Positions 3,192 through 30,256 of a stretch of 32,980 nt of DNA are shown one piece after another; position 1 is the first letter of the stretch; the number at the start of each line of letters is the position of its first letter. Below the pieces are notes generated by a model. It was not told the origin of the DNA. It saw only the letters and a program-made list of their open reading frames with translations, and searched no databases. Made by a program: the position numbers and the translations under genes. Origin of the DNA: a virus; IMG/VR virus record IMGVR_UViG_3300032311_000816, positions 1-32,980 of that record. One strand, 5' to 3'.

Positions 3192-3322
3192 ATATTTGAC
3201 TTTTTTCTGTTAGCAAATACGACTCTCTATATTTGAGATTTATTGATTCACAAATATAGCTATATTTGGAACATTTCTATTCACAAATACAGCTATATTT
3301 GGGATTTTTCTATTAGCAAATA
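3191..3322. repeat. Array of four ~35-base palindromic repeats (TATATTTG ... CAAATA)
   Basis: Four units, each TATATTTG, a 13-15 base T-rich spacer and CAAATA, with TATATTTG at 3191, 3228, 3261 and 3294 (periods 37, 33, 33). The junction of units 2 and 3 is a perfect 18-base palindrome, CAAATATAGCTATATTTG (3251-3268), and the next junction (3284-3301) differs from it by one base. A fifth copy lies at 3655-3684, on the other side of the exported-protein gene and directly against its promoter. Possible roles are operator sites for a dimeric repressor, iterons of a replication origin, or weak hairpins in the RNA. Confidence 0.8.
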
Positions 3323-3616
3323 TTACTTTTTGAAATCGCCAAGATCACGATCAAAAGAAAACTTGCCAGTCTTTTCTACAAGAGTATCGTAAGTTTCTTC
3401 TGTACAATCTGCCATTGTAGTAAAAGGTGAGATTACTGCAAAGATACCAAATGCACCAATTGTTGCTGCGGTTGAGATTGGACGAACAAATACTAGATCT
3501 CCAGCAGATAGAAAACCATCTGCTACTGGAGTAGACTCTGCTTGAGTGCCAGTATCAGCCAATCCTAAAGAAGCACAAAATAGTGCGATTAATGCTAGTG
3601 TCTTAATTTTATTCAT
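3323..3616 (-). CDS. Small exported protein, host-like 'multidrug transporter' orphan family
   Basis: 97 aa with a clear signal peptide (MNKIKTLALIALFCASLGLA). The mature part has VFVRPISTAATIGAFGIFAVISPF, a hydrophobic segment that could be a second membrane span, then an acidic Cys-containing stretch and FSFDRDLGDF at the end. A VRP...FTF.RPLGDF pattern is familiar from a small proteobacterial family usually labelled 'multidrug transporter' without evidence. The gene stands alone between copies of the palindromic repeat and has its own consensus promoter. It looks like an accessory gene taken from a host. Confidence 0.65.
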   Translation of the reverse strand: MNKIKTLALIALFCASLGLADTGTQAESTPVADGFLSAGDLVFVRPISTAATIGAFGIFAVISPFTTMADCTEETYDTLVEKTGKFSFDRDLGDFKK

Positions 3617-3684: not shown

Positions 3685-3691
3685 GATATTT

Positions 3692-3778
3692 CGGAACGAG
3701 TAGGATTCGAACCTACGGATGGAGTGAACCATCGGAAGTTTAGTAAACTTCTGCTTTAGACCACTCAGCCATCGTTCC
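3692..3778 (-). tRNA. tRNA-Ser with anticodon ACU
   Basis: Class II tRNA. Acceptor stem GGAACGA/TCGTTCC, D arm GCTGAGTGGTCTAAAGC, anticodon stem GAAGT/ACTTC with loop TTACTAA, a long variable arm closed by GATGG/CCATC, and T arm GTAGG-TTCGAAT-CCTAC. Discriminator G73 and the long variable arm fit serine. The anticodon reads ACU, matching codon AGU; the usual bacterial isoacceptor is GCU. CCA is not encoded. Confidence 0.88.
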
Positions 3779-3781
3779 AAA

Positions 3782-9629: not shown

Positions 9630-10736
9630 TTATTTGCCATGAGCGAAAGCTTCATACATGTTATTTGCTGTGGTTCTTACTGCTATTATTTTACCAGTCC
9701 ATAATCCTCCACGCATTTCTTCAATAGTTCTAAATCCAAGATAGCTCATAGTGCTTCTTAAACCATTTGCAAAATCATAAACCACATCTTCTATTGATTT
9801 ATTTTCAATCAAAGGAATCATAGTTTTGTCTCCTTCTACAAAAAGATTTTTCTTGCTTCCATCATATAGCTCGTAATCCTCAACAACATCTTTACTAGCC
9901 ATACCTCTATATACTGCAAATCTTTTACCATCTTTTTCTATTATATCTTCTTCATCAACGACATCACTTAATCCTGCAAATATTCTTCCACAAATTACTC
10001 CATCAGCACCACTAGCAATAGCCTTGGCTAAATCTCTTGGATTCCTTATGCCACCATCAGCTAAAATGCTTGGTCTATTTTCTTCTTTTGGATTTTCTTG
10101 TCTAAAATGATCTAAATTAGCTAATTGATAATTTCTTATAGCATTCCAAGCGTAAGATAAACCAGTAACACTTGGACAACCAATCCCAGTTTTAATCTGA
10201 GTCAAACACATACTTCCTGGCCCAATGAGATGTCTAAAACCATCTGCTCTTAAGTTTGCTAACCTATGAACACTTGCTTTAGTTAGTGTGTTTCCGACTA
10301 TAATATCTTGTTTATATTCAGATTGTTTGTACCATATTAAAAAATCTTCAACACTCTTGGCTAAACCATTGGCTGTATCTAAAAAGAAAATATCAGTATA
10401 TTTTGATAATGTTTCAATTCTTTGTACTGAATCTTTTAGTCCTATGGCATTAATACAGAAATTGCTTTGATCTTTGATGATCTTTGCTTTTCTAGCTTGT
10501 TCTTCTGCACTCATAAATCTATGAAGTACTCCTGCTCCACCAATTTGATTTATTTTTATACAAGACTTGACGGATGATACTGTATCCATTGGAGATAGTA
10601 CAATTGGAATATCAATATATTTATTTTTTGATATTTTCGTAATTGTACTTACTTCTTTTCTTGAAGAAATATCAGAGAAATTAGGCAGTAATGTAATATC
10701 ATCGTATCCTAAAGCTTCTTGAAATTCAATTTTCAT
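9630..10736 (-). CDS. guaC: IMPDH/GMP reductase family enzyme, probably GMP reductase
   Basis: 368 aa, a TIM barrel without the CBS pair found in most IMP dehydrogenases; GMP reductases are of similar length. Motifs: GYDDITLLPNF at the start, SPMDTVSS (about 49-55), GGAGVLHRF, the catalytic loop GPGSMCLTQ with Cys177, SILADGGIRNPRDLAKAIASGADGVICG, and YRGMASK. The C-terminal part lacks the Arg-Tyr pair of the IMPDH flap, and GLRSTMSYLG resembles the GIRSTCTYVG of GMP reductases. GMP reductase converts GMP to IMP and ammonia with NADPH. Paired with the PurA-like enzyme it would channel G nucleotides to A. The call between GMPR and IMPDH is moderate. Confidence 0.8.
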   Translation of the reverse strand: MKIEFQEALGYDDITLLPNFSDISSRKEVSTITKISKNKYIDIPIVLSPMDTVSSVKSCIKINQIGGAGVLHRFMSAEEQARKAKIIKDQSNFCINAIGLKDSVQRIETLSKYTDIFFLDTANGLAKSVEDFLIWYKQSEYKQDIIVGNTLTKASVHRLANLRADGFRHLIGPGSMCLTQIKTGIGCPSVTGLSYAWNAIRNYQLANLDHFRQENPKEENRPSILADGGIRNPRDLAKAIASGADGVICGRIFAGLSDVVDEEDIIEKDGKRFAVYRGMASKDVVEDYELYDGSKKNLFVEGDKTMIPLIENKSIEDVVYDFANGLRSTMSYLGFRTIEEMRGGLWTGKIIAVRTTANNMYEAFAHGK

Positions 10737-18008: not shown

Positions 18009-18395
18009 ATGCCAAAAATATATTGTAGTTCATGTGGTAATCCAATACAGTACGCAGATACTAAACCAAATTTCTGCACTAAATGTGGATGTAATTTAGC
18101 AAGTGGGAAACCAGTACAGAATCAAGTAAAAGTTGAACCAGAGATAGAAATAATTAATAAACCTAGTATTTCTAGTCTTAATTGGGATATAGAAATAGTA
18201 AAACCAAAAGGAGAAAAACTCCAAAATTTAGCTATAGGTGAAAAAAACTCTTGTCCACAAAGAGATTCAACTCAAGTTAATCTATCAAAAGAAGAATTTT
18301 TAAGAGAATTTCAGAAAGAAGCTGGAACCCTTCGTAGGGGTAATCAAGCTCAAGATGATGATAGTGCTGATTATGATGAAGATGATGATTCGTGA
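18009..18395 (+). CDS. Zinc-ribbon protein with acidic tail
   Basis: 128 aa. The N-terminal zinc ribbon is CSSCGNPIQYADTKPNFCTKCG (Cys6, Cys9, Cys23, Cys26). A linker with INKPSISSLNWDIEIVKPKGEK follows, then a very acidic end (DDDSADYDEDDDS). Its stop overlaps the GTG start of the second sigma-like gene, so the pair is coupled. A transcription accessory or co-activator for that sigma factor is an attractive guess, not shown by sequence. Confidence 0.7.
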   Translation: MPKIYCSSCGNPIQYADTKPNFCTKCGCNLASGKPVQNQVKVEPEIEIINKPSISSLNWDIEIVKPKGEKLQNLAIGEKNSCPQRDSTQVNLSKEEFLREFQKEAGTLRRGNQAQDDDSADYDEDDDS

Positions 18396-19069
18396 AAAAA
18401 CCAACATTCGAAAATAAATTTCAAGAAATAAATGTTGAGATCTACAAAAGAAAACATAAGTGGAATCTCACTTCTCTTGCTTGGATGGATTTTGATGATG
18501 TAGCTCAAATATTAAGAATACATATCCATAAGAAATGGAAGATGTATGATCCAGATCAACCTTTAGCTCCTTGGATAAATAGAATTGTTAGTAATCAAAT
18601 TAAAAATTTAATTAGAAATAATTACGGAAATTATTCTCGTCCTTGTTTGAAATGTGCAGCTGCAGAAGATGAGGATCATTGCAATATTTATGGAAAACAA
18701 TGCAATTCTTGTCCATTATATGCTGCTTGGGAAAAGAGCAAGAAAAATGCACATGATACAAAATTACCATTAGCTTTAGAAAATCATACAAAAGAAGTAC
18801 ATGAAATGGAGGATGGTAAAATTGATATAGAAAGAAGTGCTAACAATATACATAAAAAAATGCAACAAGTGCTTAAACCTACTGAATGGAAAGTATATCA
18901 ATTGCTTTATATAGATCATAAAGATGAGGATCAAGTTGCAGCAAGTATGGGATACAAGACTAGCGAAAAGAATCGTGCTCCAGGTTACAAGCAAGTACAA
19001 AATATTAAAAAATCTATTATCGTAAAAGTAAGAAAATATCTTTATAGTGATGATGTAGATATATTATGA
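18392..19069 (+). CDS. Second sigma-like factor with inserted zinc-binding loop
   Basis: 225 aa, GTG start. A sigma region 2-like part lies near residues 25-75: WMDFDDVAQILRIHIHKKWKMY followed by APWINRIVSNQIKNLIRNNYG. A cysteine cluster follows (CLKC, C near 93, CNSC at about 100-105) that probably binds zinc, and a C-terminal helix-turn-helix (TEWKVYQLLYIDHKDEDQVAASMGYKTS...VQNIKKSI). The Cys insertion is unusual for sigma factors. Its position just before the packaging genes suggests it drives late transcription, perhaps from the GTGTAATA motifs. Confidence 0.72.
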   Translation: MKKPTFENKFQEINVEIYKRKHKWNLTSLAWMDFDDVAQILRIHIHKKWKMYDPDQPLAPWINRIVSNQIKNLIRNNYGNYSRPCLKCAAAEDEDHCNIYGKQCNSCPLYAAWEKSKKNAHDTKLPLALENHTKEVHEMEDGKIDIERSANNIHKKMQQVLKPTEWKVYQLLYIDHKDEDQVAASMGYKTSEKNRAPGYKQVQNIKKSIIVKVRKYLYSDDVDIL

Positions 19070-24936: not shown

Positions 24937-27198
24937 ATGAATAAATCTATACTAGTTAAAAAAAGAAATGGTGCGTCTGAAAAATTTGATATAGAAAAAA
25001 TCAATAAGGTAATTAAATGGGCAATTGATGGTCTATCTGGCGTAAGTCTCACAGATATCGAAATAAACGCTAAAATTAATATGCATGAAGGAGTTTCTAC
25101 TGAGGAAATTCATAAACTTATAATAGAGAGTGCAGCAAATTTAATTAGCGTAGAAAGTCCAAACTATCAATATGTAGCTAGTAGATTATTAAACTATCAA
25201 TTGCGTAAAGATGTATGGAGGGGTAAGCATGCACCACGACTAATAGAATTTATACAAAATGGTATTAAAAATAAAATTTATGATGCAGTTATCCTAGAGA
25301 AATATACCGAGGATGAGATTAATAAGATGGGCGAATTTATTGATCATGAAAGAGATTTTATATTTACTTATGCTGGAATAAAACAATTATGCGATAAGTA
25401 TTTAATTAAAAATAGAACAAATGGAGTAATTTATGAGACTCCGCAGTTTGCTTACTTATTAATATCTGCTTATGCTTTTATAAATTATCCAATAGAAACA
25501 AGAATAAATTATGTAAGAAAGTTTTATGACGCTATTAGTAAGCATAAAATTAATCTTCCAACACCAGTAATGGCTGGAGTAAGAACAAGTAGTAGAAATT
25601 ACGCTAGCTGTTGTTTAATTGGAGTAGATGACACAAGGGAAAGTATTACAGCTAGTGCTACTGCTGTTAGTATGGCTACTGCTAATAGATGTGGTATTGG
25701 AATTGATGTAAGTAAAATTAGAGCTATTGGTTCTCCAATTAAAAACGGAGAAGTTGTTCATACTGGTTTAATTCCATTTTTAAAAATCTATGAAAGTAGC
25801 GTAAAGGCTTGGCAACAGAATGGATTGAGAGGTGGTAGTGCAACTTGTAATATTCAATGGTGGCATTACGAGATTGAAGATATTATTGTTTTAAAAAATA
25901 ATGCTGGAACAGATGACAACAGAGTTCGTAAACTTGATTATACTGTTGGCATGAGTAAACTATTTTATGATAGAGTATTAAAAGATGAAGATATTACTTT
26001 ATTTAATAATGCAGAAGTTCCAGAACTTTATGAAGCATGGGGTACAAAAGACTTTGATAAAGTATATAAAGAGTGTGAATCTAAAAAATTAAAGTTAAAA
26101 AAGAAAGTATCTGCTCGTAAATTATTTTCTCTTATAGTTAAAGAGAGAGTTGAGACTGGTCGTATTTATATTCTTAACGTAGATCATGCTAATGAACATG
26201 GAGCTTGGTCTGATAAAGTTACGATGAGTAATCTTTGCACAGAAGTTATTCATCCTACTATTCCATTAAATGATTATAATGATAAAGATGGTGAAATTGG
26301 AATGTGTATTCTTTCAGCAGTAAATATGTTAGAAATTAAAAATTGGCAAGATCTTGAAAAGACATGCGATCTTATCGTAAGATTTCTAGAAGAAATCATT
26401 GAGCTTCAAGACTATTTTAATATTGCTGCTGAGAATTTTGCTAAAAAGCGTAGAAGTCTTGGTATTGGAATTACTAATCTAGCTGCTTTTCTTGCTAAGA
26501 ATGAATTAAAATATTCAAATGATAAATCATTATCAGTAATTGATGAATGGATGGAGCATTTTCAATACTATTTATTAACCAGTAGCATGGAATTAGCTAA
26601 AGAAAAAGGCAGATGTGAGAAGTTCGATCATACAAAATATTCTAAAGGTATATTACCAATTGATACATATAAAGATAAAGTAGATGAAATTTGCAAAAGA
26701 AAATTATCACTCGATTGGGAAAAGCTAAGAAAAGATATTAAAGAATTTGGATTAAGACATTCAACTCTTTCTTCTTGTATGCCCTGTGAAAGTAGTTCTG
26801 TTATTCAATCTTCTACCAATGGAGTAGAACCAATTCGTAGTCTTATTACTTACAAAACAAGTAAAATGGGTAAGCTTCCAGTTATGGTTCCAGGAATCGG
26901 CAAGTACGATGAAAATTATGAACTAGCTTATGAATTAAAGGATAATACTGGATTGCTTAAAATTAATGCAGTTATTCAGAAATATATTGACATGGCTATA
27001 TCAACTAATGTATACTATAATTATAGTCATTATGAAAACAATATATTACCAGATGCAAAAGTCATGAAAGAATTAATTTATGCTTATAGTCTTGGTTTGA
27101 TTAGTCTTTATTACAACAATACAGACGACGGAGATAAAGAACAATCACTTAATCAAAAAGAAGATAGAGATTGCTCAAGTGGTGCGTGTAAACTATAG
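24937..27198 (+). CDS. nrdA: Ribonucleoside-diphosphate reductase class I alpha subunit
   Basis: 753 aa, normal size. An N-terminal ATP-cone (VKKRNGASEKFDIEKINKVI...) indicates dATP feedback control, perhaps unwelcome to a phage. Catalytic features: the redox Cys in ASCCLIGVDD (about residue 226), SNLCTEV with the thiyl-radical Cys (about 434), and SCMPCESSS (about 612-616). The C-terminal redox pair is DCSSGACKL. It reduces NDPs to dNDPs with NrdB. The promoter region carries TATAAT and CTGTAATA 19-37 bases upstream. nrdAB lies inside the late module between the portal and structural genes. Confidence 0.96.
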   Translation: MNKSILVKKRNGASEKFDIEKINKVIKWAIDGLSGVSLTDIEINAKINMHEGVSTEEIHKLIIESAANLISVESPNYQYVASRLLNYQLRKDVWRGKHAPRLIEFIQNGIKNKIYDAVILEKYTEDEINKMGEFIDHERDFIFTYAGIKQLCDKYLIKNRTNGVIYETPQFAYLLISAYAFINYPIETRINYVRKFYDAISKHKINLPTPVMAGVRTSSRNYASCCLIGVDDTRESITASATAVSMATANRCGIGIDVSKIRAIGSPIKNGEVVHTGLIPFLKIYESSVKAWQQNGLRGGSATCNIQWWHYEIEDIIVLKNNAGTDDNRVRKLDYTVGMSKLFYDRVLKDEDITLFNNAEVPELYEAWGTKDFDKVYKECESKKLKLKKKVSARKLFSLIVKERVETGRIYILNVDHANEHGAWSDKVTMSNLCTEVIHPTIPLNDYNDKDGEIGMCILSAVNMLEIKNWQDLEKTCDLIVRFLEEIIELQDYFNIAAENFAKKRRSLGIGITNLAAFLAKNELKYSNDKSLSVIDEWMEHFQYYLLTSSMELAKEKGRCEKFDHTKYSKGILPIDTYKDKVDEICKRKLSLDWEKLRKDIKEFGLRHSTLSSCMPCESSSVIQSSTNGVEPIRSLITYKTSKMGKLPVMVPGIGKYDENYELAYELKDNTGLLKINAVIQKYIDMAISTNVYYNYSHYENNILPDAKVMKELIYAYSLGLISLYYNNTDDGDKEQSLNQKEDRDCSSGACKL

Positions 27199-27201
27199 TC
27201 C

Positions 27202-28266
27202 ATGAAAACAGTATTAAACTTTAAAAATGTAGATACTACAAAACAACCATTATTTCTTGGTGAAGATCTTAATCTTCAAAGATATGATCGTTTTAAATAT
27301 CCAGTATTTTTTGAACTATTTAAAAAGCAAAATGAAAATTTTTGGTGGCCTCATGAAATTGCTCTTGGTAAGGATAGGAGCGATTATAAAAATTTAACCG
27401 ATACAGAAAGATTTGTATTTGATAGTAATTTAAGATTTCAAACTCTTGGTGACAGTATGCTTTCTCGTAGTATTCATTCGCTTAAAGATTATGTAAGTAA
27501 TCCAGAACTTGAGATTTGTATGAATACTTGGGCTCAATTTGAAGGCATTCATAGCTATTCTTATTCTTATCTCTTGAATAATGTATATCCAGATGCAACT
27601 AAATTTTTTGATAGTATTATGGAAGATAAAGAAATTACAAGTCGCGCCGAGTTAATTAGAAATAATTTTGATAAAATCCTTGGTGATGATGATAAGAAAG
27701 ATGTTAAACAAAAGATTTTTGATGCAATTCTTTCTATCAATGTAATGGAAGGTCTTGTATTTTACGTTTCTTTTGCTTGTTCTTTTTATTTTGGATATCG
27801 TGGTAAGATGGAAGGTAATTCTAAAATTATCAAATTCATTCAAAGAGATGAAGCACTTCATTTTGCTGTAAGTCAAAATCTTCTTAAGATTCTAAAAGAA
27901 GAGGATAAGGAAGGCTTTACTTCTATCGTTAAGAAAAGCGAAGATAAAATATATGCTTTCTATGAACAAGCTGCAAAAAATGAATGCGAATGGTCACAAT
28001 ATTTATTTAGCAAAGGTAATCTATTAGGATTAAATCCAGAAGTTCTTGATGGATATTCTAAATGGCTTTGTGATAATAGATTAAGAAGTATTGGTTACAA
28101 GAAGATATTCAATCAAAAAGATAATCCTATTGGTGGTTGGCTTGATAGTTACTTGGATAGTAGTAAGGTACAAGTAGCTCCTCAAGAAACAGAGATTTCT
28201 AGCTATAAAGTAGGAGCAAGAAAGACTGATATCTCTGATGATGATTTTGGTGATTTAAAGCTATAA
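27202..28266 (+). CDS. nrdB: Ribonucleoside-diphosphate reductase class Ia beta subunit
   Basis: 354 aa, 3 bases after nrdA. All iron ligands are visible: Asp84 (QTLGDS), Glu114 and His117 (FEGIH), Glu183 (VMEGL), Glu217 and His220 (DEALH). The radical tyrosine is Tyr121, four residues after His117, so it should form the classical diferric-tyrosyl radical. The C-terminal tail, which docks on NrdA, ends ISDDDFGDLKL. With NrdA it makes deoxynucleotides for phage replication. Confidence 0.96.
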   Translation: MKTVLNFKNVDTTKQPLFLGEDLNLQRYDRFKYPVFFELFKKQNENFWWPHEIALGKDRSDYKNLTDTERFVFDSNLRFQTLGDSMLSRSIHSLKDYVSNPELEICMNTWAQFEGIHSYSYSYLLNNVYPDATKFFDSIMEDKEITSRAELIRNNFDKILGDDDKKDVKQKIFDAILSINVMEGLVFYVSFACSFYFGYRGKMEGNSKIIKFIQRDEALHFAVSQNLLKILKEEDKEGFTSIVKKSEDKIYAFYEQAAKNECEWSQYLFSKGNLLGLNPEVLDGYSKWLCDNRLRSIGYKKIFNQKDNPIGGWLDSYLDSSKVQVAPQETEISSYKVGARKTDISDDDFGDLKL

Positions 28267-29562: not shown

Positions 29563-29778
29563 ATGGAACTTATTAAGAATCAAGCTTCTTGGACTAAATT
29601 CACAAAGCTTAAAGCAAAAAGCTATAATTTAGAACAGGATAAAATTGATAAAAATTTTAAACCTCAAGAGTTTCCTTGTTTAGCTCAATCATATATAAAT
29701 TCAGATGTTAATGGTTTAAGATTAAAATTCGTATTCGCTTATAAAAAAGATTGTCAAAAACTATTAAGTAAAGTATAA
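29563..29778 (+). CDS. Small hypothetical protein
   Basis: 71 aa from the Met at 29563 (MELIKNQASWTKFTKLKAKSY), which has TATAAT (29551-29556) 6 bases above it. A longer frame from 29500, itself 9 bases below another TATAAT, would add 21 hydrophobic residues and a possible membrane anchor. The mature part is basic (CLAQSYINSDVNGLRLKFVFAYKKDCQKLLSKV). Its 3' end contains the -35 and -10 boxes of the tmRNA promoter. Not recognised. Confidence 0.55.
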   Translation: MELIKNQASWTKFTKLKAKSYNLEQDKIDKNFKPQEFPCLAQSYINSDVNGLRLKFVFAYKKDCQKLLSKV

Positions 29779-29779
29779 T
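29751..29779 (+). promoter_or_regulatory. Sigma70 promoter of tmRNA
   Basis: TTGTCA (29751-29756), 17 bases, TATAAT (29774-29779), inside the 3' end of the upstream gene, whose stop codon lies in the -10 box. The mature tmRNA 5' end at 29812 is about 26 bases below the expected start site, leaving a short leader for RNase P removal. Confidence 0.75.
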
Positions 29780-29811: not shown

Positions 29812-30228
29812 GGGCCCGTACTGGTTTCGATTTTAAGAATTGAAATTAGAATGCAAGTAGAGTTGAAGTGGACTCTATAAACAACTTCAAACACTTAACT
29901 GCCAAATCAGCTAAGTTAAAAGGTAGCTTCTCATTGAGAGTTTCTCACAGTAAGAAGCACCTAATCGCAGCCTAAAAATCTGCGACCTGTTATCTACGAC
30001 ACATCTACTAGAATAATGGGTATTTAGATGTATATCTTTAAATCCTTTTTATTTAATTTTTAAAGATATTATTTAGGGTGAATATAACTAAGGTCATATT
30101 TATTATTAAATAAATAGCTATAGCCCAATTGCTTATTCGACACTATAGCGAAATAACGGAATAAGCTAAACTTGTAGTATTTTAATTTAACTTTTTAAAA
30201 GACAGAGGTTCAATTCCTCTCGGGTCCA
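29812..30228 (+). ncRNA. ssrA: tmRNA (ssrA), one-piece
   Basis: The tRNA-like half is formed by 5' GGGCCCG and 3' CGGGTCC with discriminator A; CCA is not encoded. The 5' end continues TACTGGTTTCGA, and the T arm is AGAGG-TTCAATT-CCTCT. Pseudoknot 1 is TAGAGT/ACTCTA (29858-29863, 29872-29877) interlocked with TGAAGT/ACTTCA. The tag frame is read from GCC at 29901 to TAA at 29973: 24 residues starting AKSAK and ending HLIAA, a ClpXP-type end. Two hairpins lie within or after the tag frame (GGT/ACC plus GCTTCT/AGAAGC; TCGCAG/CTGCGA around the stop). The product would rescue stalled ribosomes. Length is about 417 nt. Confidence 0.93.
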
Positions 30229-30256
30229 AGTTAAATAACATATTAGTCTTAATTTT

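Follow-up and report, generated by a model that had tools for sequence, protein, structure and literature searches.

The window, by which the whole stretch of DNA analysed here is meant (32,980 bases, positions 1 to 32,980 of an IMG/VR virus record), encodes a terminase large subunit, nrdA, nrdB, an ERCC4-type nuclease, PhoH, a dUTPase-like protein and a dCMP deaminase, together with one tmRNA gene. Its viral origin is indicated by the IMG/VR record itself, by the terminase, nrdAB and PhoH genes, and by the presence of the same tmRNA in related viral contigs. ARAGORN located a one-piece tmRNA with the tag AKSAKLKGSFSLRVSHSKKHLIAA on the plus strand at 29812-30228, and Infernal aligned positions 29812-30229 to the full RF00023 model (1-374) with 89.5 bits (E 1e-33), the curated cut-off of this covariance model being 47 bits. 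A sequence-only reading had proposed a phage tmRNA with all core elements at the same coordinates, and both programs bear it out. The parts of the gene and the region upstream of it are as follows.

29751..29779, plus strand: putative sigma-70-type promoter TTGTCA-17-TATAAT, 32 nt 5' of the tmRNA gene and overlapping the end of the upstream ORF (11/12 matches)
29812..30228, plus strand: one-piece tmRNA gene (ssrA), 417 nt, CCA not encoded (ARAGORN; RF00023, 89.5 bits; covariation in 9 alleles)
29812..29818, plus strand: acceptor stem 5' strand GGGCCCG, including G3 of G3-U70 (G-U in 9/9 alleles; pairs 5 and 6 compensatory)
29858..29888, plus strand: pseudoknot PK1, stems AGAGU/ACUCU and GAAGU/ACUUC, 12 nt 5' of the resume codon (pair test)
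29896..29900, plus strand: frame-setting pentamer UAACU (identical in 9/9 alleles)
29901..29975, plus strand: tag reading frame AKSAKLKGSFSLRVSHSKKHLIAA, 24 codons at 29901-29972 and UAA stop at 29973-29975 (ARAGORN, Infernal, alleles)
29910..29948, plus strand: conserved basic core of the tag, residues 4-16, AKLKGSFSLRVSH (6 variable columns in 7 distinct alleles, all synonymous)
29921..29962, plus strand: hairpin within the tag frame (15-17 of 17 pairs retained in 9 alleles; more stable than synonymous recodings)
29965..29985, plus strand: canonical tag-end helix UCGCAG/CUGCGA with the tag stop codon in its loop (invariant in 9 alleles)
30204..30220, plus strand: T arm (compensatory changes in 5/5 pairs)
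30221..30228, plus strand: acceptor stem 3' strand CGGGUCC and discriminator A (RF00023 alignment, pair test)

The TATAAT of the putative promoter is retained in most relatives; as evidence the site is weak, given the high AT content of the region and its overlap with coding sequence. Elsewhere in the window, an adenylosuccinate synthetase-like gene (PF00709; 7419-8411, minus strand) lies near an IMP dehydrogenase/GMP reductase-like gene (9630-10736, minus strand), and the two form a phage purine nucleotide module. The idea of a Z-genome, raised by the PurA-like gene, was rejected, as the motif WGDEGKGK is kept and phmmer places the protein closer to bacterial PurA than to the shorter 6fko entry. 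Further observations concern intergenic 33-bp tandem repeats at 3246-3323 (2.4 copies, each with TATATTTG), possibly an origin or a regulatory site, a predicted tRNA-Ser at 3691-3779 (minus strand) that adjoins a tRNA-Asn and has the anticodon ACU, unusual for bacteria, and a weak sigma-70 region 2 match at 18392-19069 (plus strand), possibly a phage sigma factor.

Relatives of this phage were collected in several ways. A search with the terminase retrieved 80 relatives with 67-99% identity, while the terminases of cultivated phages are only about 24% identical to those of this lineage; in a family search, 50 records contained ten tmRNAs above the cut-off, and the exact piece of the tag frame matched 2 viral contigs. 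The alleles compared with the window comprise four relatives with the same tag type found via the terminase alone (L088-L091), two found via the tag DNA piece and two records found via the tag peptide pattern. The gene lies downstream of nrdB in the window, in L001 and in G002, as it does wherever a record includes nrdB.

The fold of the whole tmRNA is markedly stable (z = -6.5 against dinucleotide shuffles), and its pairing was examined in an alignment of 9 sequences covering 70 pairs in 11 helices. Paired cells amount to 99.2%, compared with 32-51% in slid versions, a measure favoured by the fact that the helices were named from these same sequences and from the general tmRNA plan. Both sides have changed in 18 of the 70 modelled pairs (mean of 7.9 in shuffled alignments) and covariation scores 0.252, the shuffled control reaching 0.121; covariation is thus far above both controls. 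Compensatory changes are found in the acceptor stem, the T arm, P2 and PK1, and the tRNA-like fold closed by P2, together with PK1, is as expected of an RF00023 member. Pairs 5 and 6 of the acceptor stem covary, whereas the alanine identity pair G3-U70 is G-U in every allele, from which charging with alanine would be expected. The RF00023 score of the phage RNA is lower than that of most Flavobacteriales tmRNAs (about 130-177 bits), which is what an AT-rich phage RNA predicts and is equally compatible with a specialised role.

The translational register can be read from the same alignment. In all 9 alleles UAACU is followed by the resume codon GCC (29901), and the pentamer retains the counterparts of U85 and A86, which are chiefly responsible for setting the frame in E. 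coli tmRNA; there, the spacing between PK1 and the resume codon is also 12 nt (PMC2481249). Stops occur in both other frames of the message region of the window, and frame 0 is open in all alleles. In the covariance-model alignment the resume region is UAACU-GCC and not shifted to another frame, so that the frame chosen in the sequence-only reading is correct, and ARAGORN returned the same 24-codon tag.

The tag has a net charge of +6 without His (+5 to +6 among the alleles of the clade), in agreement with its earlier description as strongly basic. Measured against 10 aa, the commonest tag length in the current (2025) tmRNA database (PMC11915505), 24 residues count as long, and in this the phage tag departs from those of bacterial one-piece tmRNAs. 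The 7 distinct tag alleles encode AK[STP]AKLKGSFSLRVSH[SNK]K[KDEN][HSA]LIAA. Residues 17-20 drift, the terminal LIAA is invariant, and in residues 4-16 there are 6 variable columns with at least 8 changes, all of them synonymous. If substitutions fell at random, with transitions weighted 2, six core columns would vary only synonymously with a probability of about 3e-4, or 3e-4 to 9e-4 once the tolerance of the hairpin is allowed for, values which assume independent changes and are based on seven distinct tag sequences only. The window and the four terminase-found alleles alone show all six variable core columns, and the pattern was therefore not created by the search. The open tag frame thus combines coding constraint with a hydrophobic-AA ending, as is typical of RF00023. 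Taken together, these data give good, though not overwhelming, grounds for considering the tag peptide itself to be under selection, and the exclusively synonymous variation suggests an additional role of the core at the peptide level. The LIAA end, for its part, resembles a usual C-terminal degron.

Within the tag frame lies the hairpin that had been noticed from the letters alone (29921-29962, 17 pairs, -17.7 kcal/mol). Of 2000 synonymous recodings generated with phage codon usage, just 3 fold as well as the window hairpin, and with uniform usage 45 of 2000 do; for some other alleles the latter contrast is less pronounced. Being conserved and unusually stable, the hairpin could be a rival cause of the conservation of the core, which would then serve RNA-level needs only, the peptide being an indifferent linker before LIAA; this would also agree with a report that tmRNA function in E. 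coli is little affected by alterations of the tag template (PMC2481249). Yet 70-99 of the 117 possible single changes leave a hairpin of -14 kcal/mol or better, and only about 26-31% of these are synonymous, whereas all changes observed in the core are. Such an outcome would hardly arise from RNA constraint alone, and an explanation limited to the RNA is considered unlikely.

The question of where the tag comes from was addressed in cellular and viral genomes. The core KLKGSFSLRVSH had no match in 84,980 prokaryote species genomes even with nearly all synonymous codons allowed, and the tag had none in 50,697 phage records; at the DNA level, known phages gave short generic matches only, including the 5' ends of mycobacteriophage tmRNAs. 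Flavobacteriales were chosen for comparison because a Flavobacteriales MAG contains the sole GTDB contig with this terminase family, although binning is weak evidence of a host. The tags read from their tmRNA loci have 9 residues (GENNYALAA, GNEEFALAA), apart from one odd 10-residue tag in this MAG. The suggestion that the phage might carry a tag different from that of its host agrees with this comparison, as far as candidate host groups are concerned. A copy of a host ssrA was rejected on the basis of the missing core and of these 9-10 aa tags, and a copy of a phage protein or of a solved protein for want of a convincing match. The odd tag, ADTSVLALAA, belongs to a second tmRNA (L153, contig C23 of the Flavobacteriales MAG NAT55) beside GENNYALAA, and may reflect a foreign contig or a second element.

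Other host signals are mixed. Shine-Dalgarno motifs precede genes at or slightly above background; on the other hand, the TTGTCA-17-TATAAT promoter-like site is present and the Bacteroidota promoter motif TANNTTTG shows no excess. Because the MAG, the Shine-Dalgarno motifs and the promoter types disagree, no host is assigned. A cyanobacterial host was not supported, psbA being found in 0 of 18 records.

A different tmRNA is found in phages whose terminase is 69% identical; its tags are acidic and mostly 30-35 residues long. The degenerate core pattern APS[LV]AEAD[AE]ILAK[FYH]G recovered 33 stretches, and the conservation of the acidic core is partly by construction, because this pattern fixed it. 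Among 31 records, two of them of the window type, 29 had a tmRNA match and 26 were above the cut-off. Reading the frames gave about two dozen tags, such as ADNIVDMAPSLAEADAILAKYGWAEEAAVAA and ANSDIDMEFAPSLAEADEILAKFGYVEEEELQLAA, a few shorter readings of which may have wrong starts. The acidic core occurred in 0 of 395 Bacteroidota genomes. Like the window tmRNA, these are one-piece phage tmRNAs having a tag far above the usual length and a conserved core. The window tag is instead basic, has no sequence in common with the acidic ones and lies at another genome position; it ends in LIAA, most acidic tags ending in -AA, and CCA is encoded in those acidic-tag tmRNAs that were read but not in the window. 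The acidic-tag records are L084-L087, L102-L133 and L189-L217 (except L206 and L209), on contigs of up to 182 kb, some of which lack a match to the terminase family of the window. In one of these genomes (G151, the record of L103) the terminase large subunit gene is split into two overlapping frames (25465-27299).

From these comparisons, the locus very probably encodes a working phage tmRNA that recycles ribosomes during infection and adds a tag ending in a ClpXP-type degron. The RNA would be transcribed from the phage and trimmed, and host enzymes would add CCA and charge it with alanine. SmpB (PF01668) had no match in 26 phage records, which are partial (33-182 kb), with positive controls. 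A phage-borne SmpB is not a required feature of a phage-encoded tmRNA, and since it was missing from these records, host SmpB and the host alanyl-tRNA synthetase would be the partners. SmpB of the host would bring the tmRNA to ribosomes that stall when a message is cut or damaged, translation would switch to GCC at 29901, append AKSAKLKGSFSLRVSHSKKHLIAA and end at UAA, and the ribosome would be recycled. The LIAA end would direct the tagged product to a ClpXP-like protease. As for the basic core, its effect would lie in the peptide: in the simplest case it would be a spacer or adaptor site matched to the protease machinery of the host, or alternatively a stretch with affinity for nucleic acids or membranes, and the in-frame hairpin probably compacts the longer message and protects it from nucleases.

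Two further proposals place the function in the peptide. The tag might stabilise or target rather than degrade, so that ribosomes are rescued while truncated products are kept or steered to nucleic acid, to a membrane or to a phage or host partner. Its length, charge and conserved core fit this, as does the failure to match tags of candidate host groups or phage proteins, but the invariant LIAA resembles the hydrophobic-AA ends of known degradation tags, for example ALAA, and the proposal seems rather improbable. Similarly, it is a speculative, quite unlikely view that the tag is a purpose-built, clade-specific peptide, basic in the window clade and acidic with about 30-35 residues in the relatives, which binds a host or phage partner, so that stalled products are re-routed and not merely destroyed. 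In more general terms, it is possible that a phage tmRNA diverts stalled peptides to host proteases or away from them, as the sequence-only reading proposed. An RNA that consists of the tRNA-like domain only and inhibits trans-translation of the host has been reported from mycobacteriophage DS6A (PMC4131195). That the RNA of the window likewise titrates host SmpB and blocks trans-translation instead of tagging is highly improbable, since here, unlike in DS6A, the whole message domain persists under coding constraint, complete with the resume signal, the tag frame and the stop helix.

With bacterial one-piece tmRNAs (RF00023) the phage RNA shares the tRNA-like domain with G3-U70, PK1 at 12 nt before the resume codon, the UAACU-GCC start and a tag-end hairpin holding the stop codon, whereas the extra in-frame hairpin, the absence of an encoded CCA and a tag found in phages only set it apart. 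Phages with their own ssrA are already known, among them the mycobacteriophages Bxz1, Wildcat and others, Bacillus phage G and the OM43 phage Melnitz, whose tmRNA is a permuted two-piece molecule, unlike the one-piece RNA of the window. Ten phage tmRNAs were listed in one study (PMC4131195), 402 of 18,146 phage genomes carried one in another (PMC9004378), and 79 unique phage sequences are present in the 2025 database (PMC11915505). What is new is the long, basic tag of an uncultivated clade, which by comparison of its alleles is conserved across that clade, together with its in-frame hairpin and the acidic long tags of related phages.

The proposed reasons for phages to carry a tmRNA are the upkeep of the hijacked translation machinery or the recycling of host proteins (PMC9004378). 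The synonymous-only core argues for selection on the tag peptide in phages, beyond ribosome release. The question of why phages carry a tmRNA becomes testable in this way, with the related acidic long tags as a natural comparison set, and the unusually long, basic tag is a small, testable twist on a known ribosome-rescue system.
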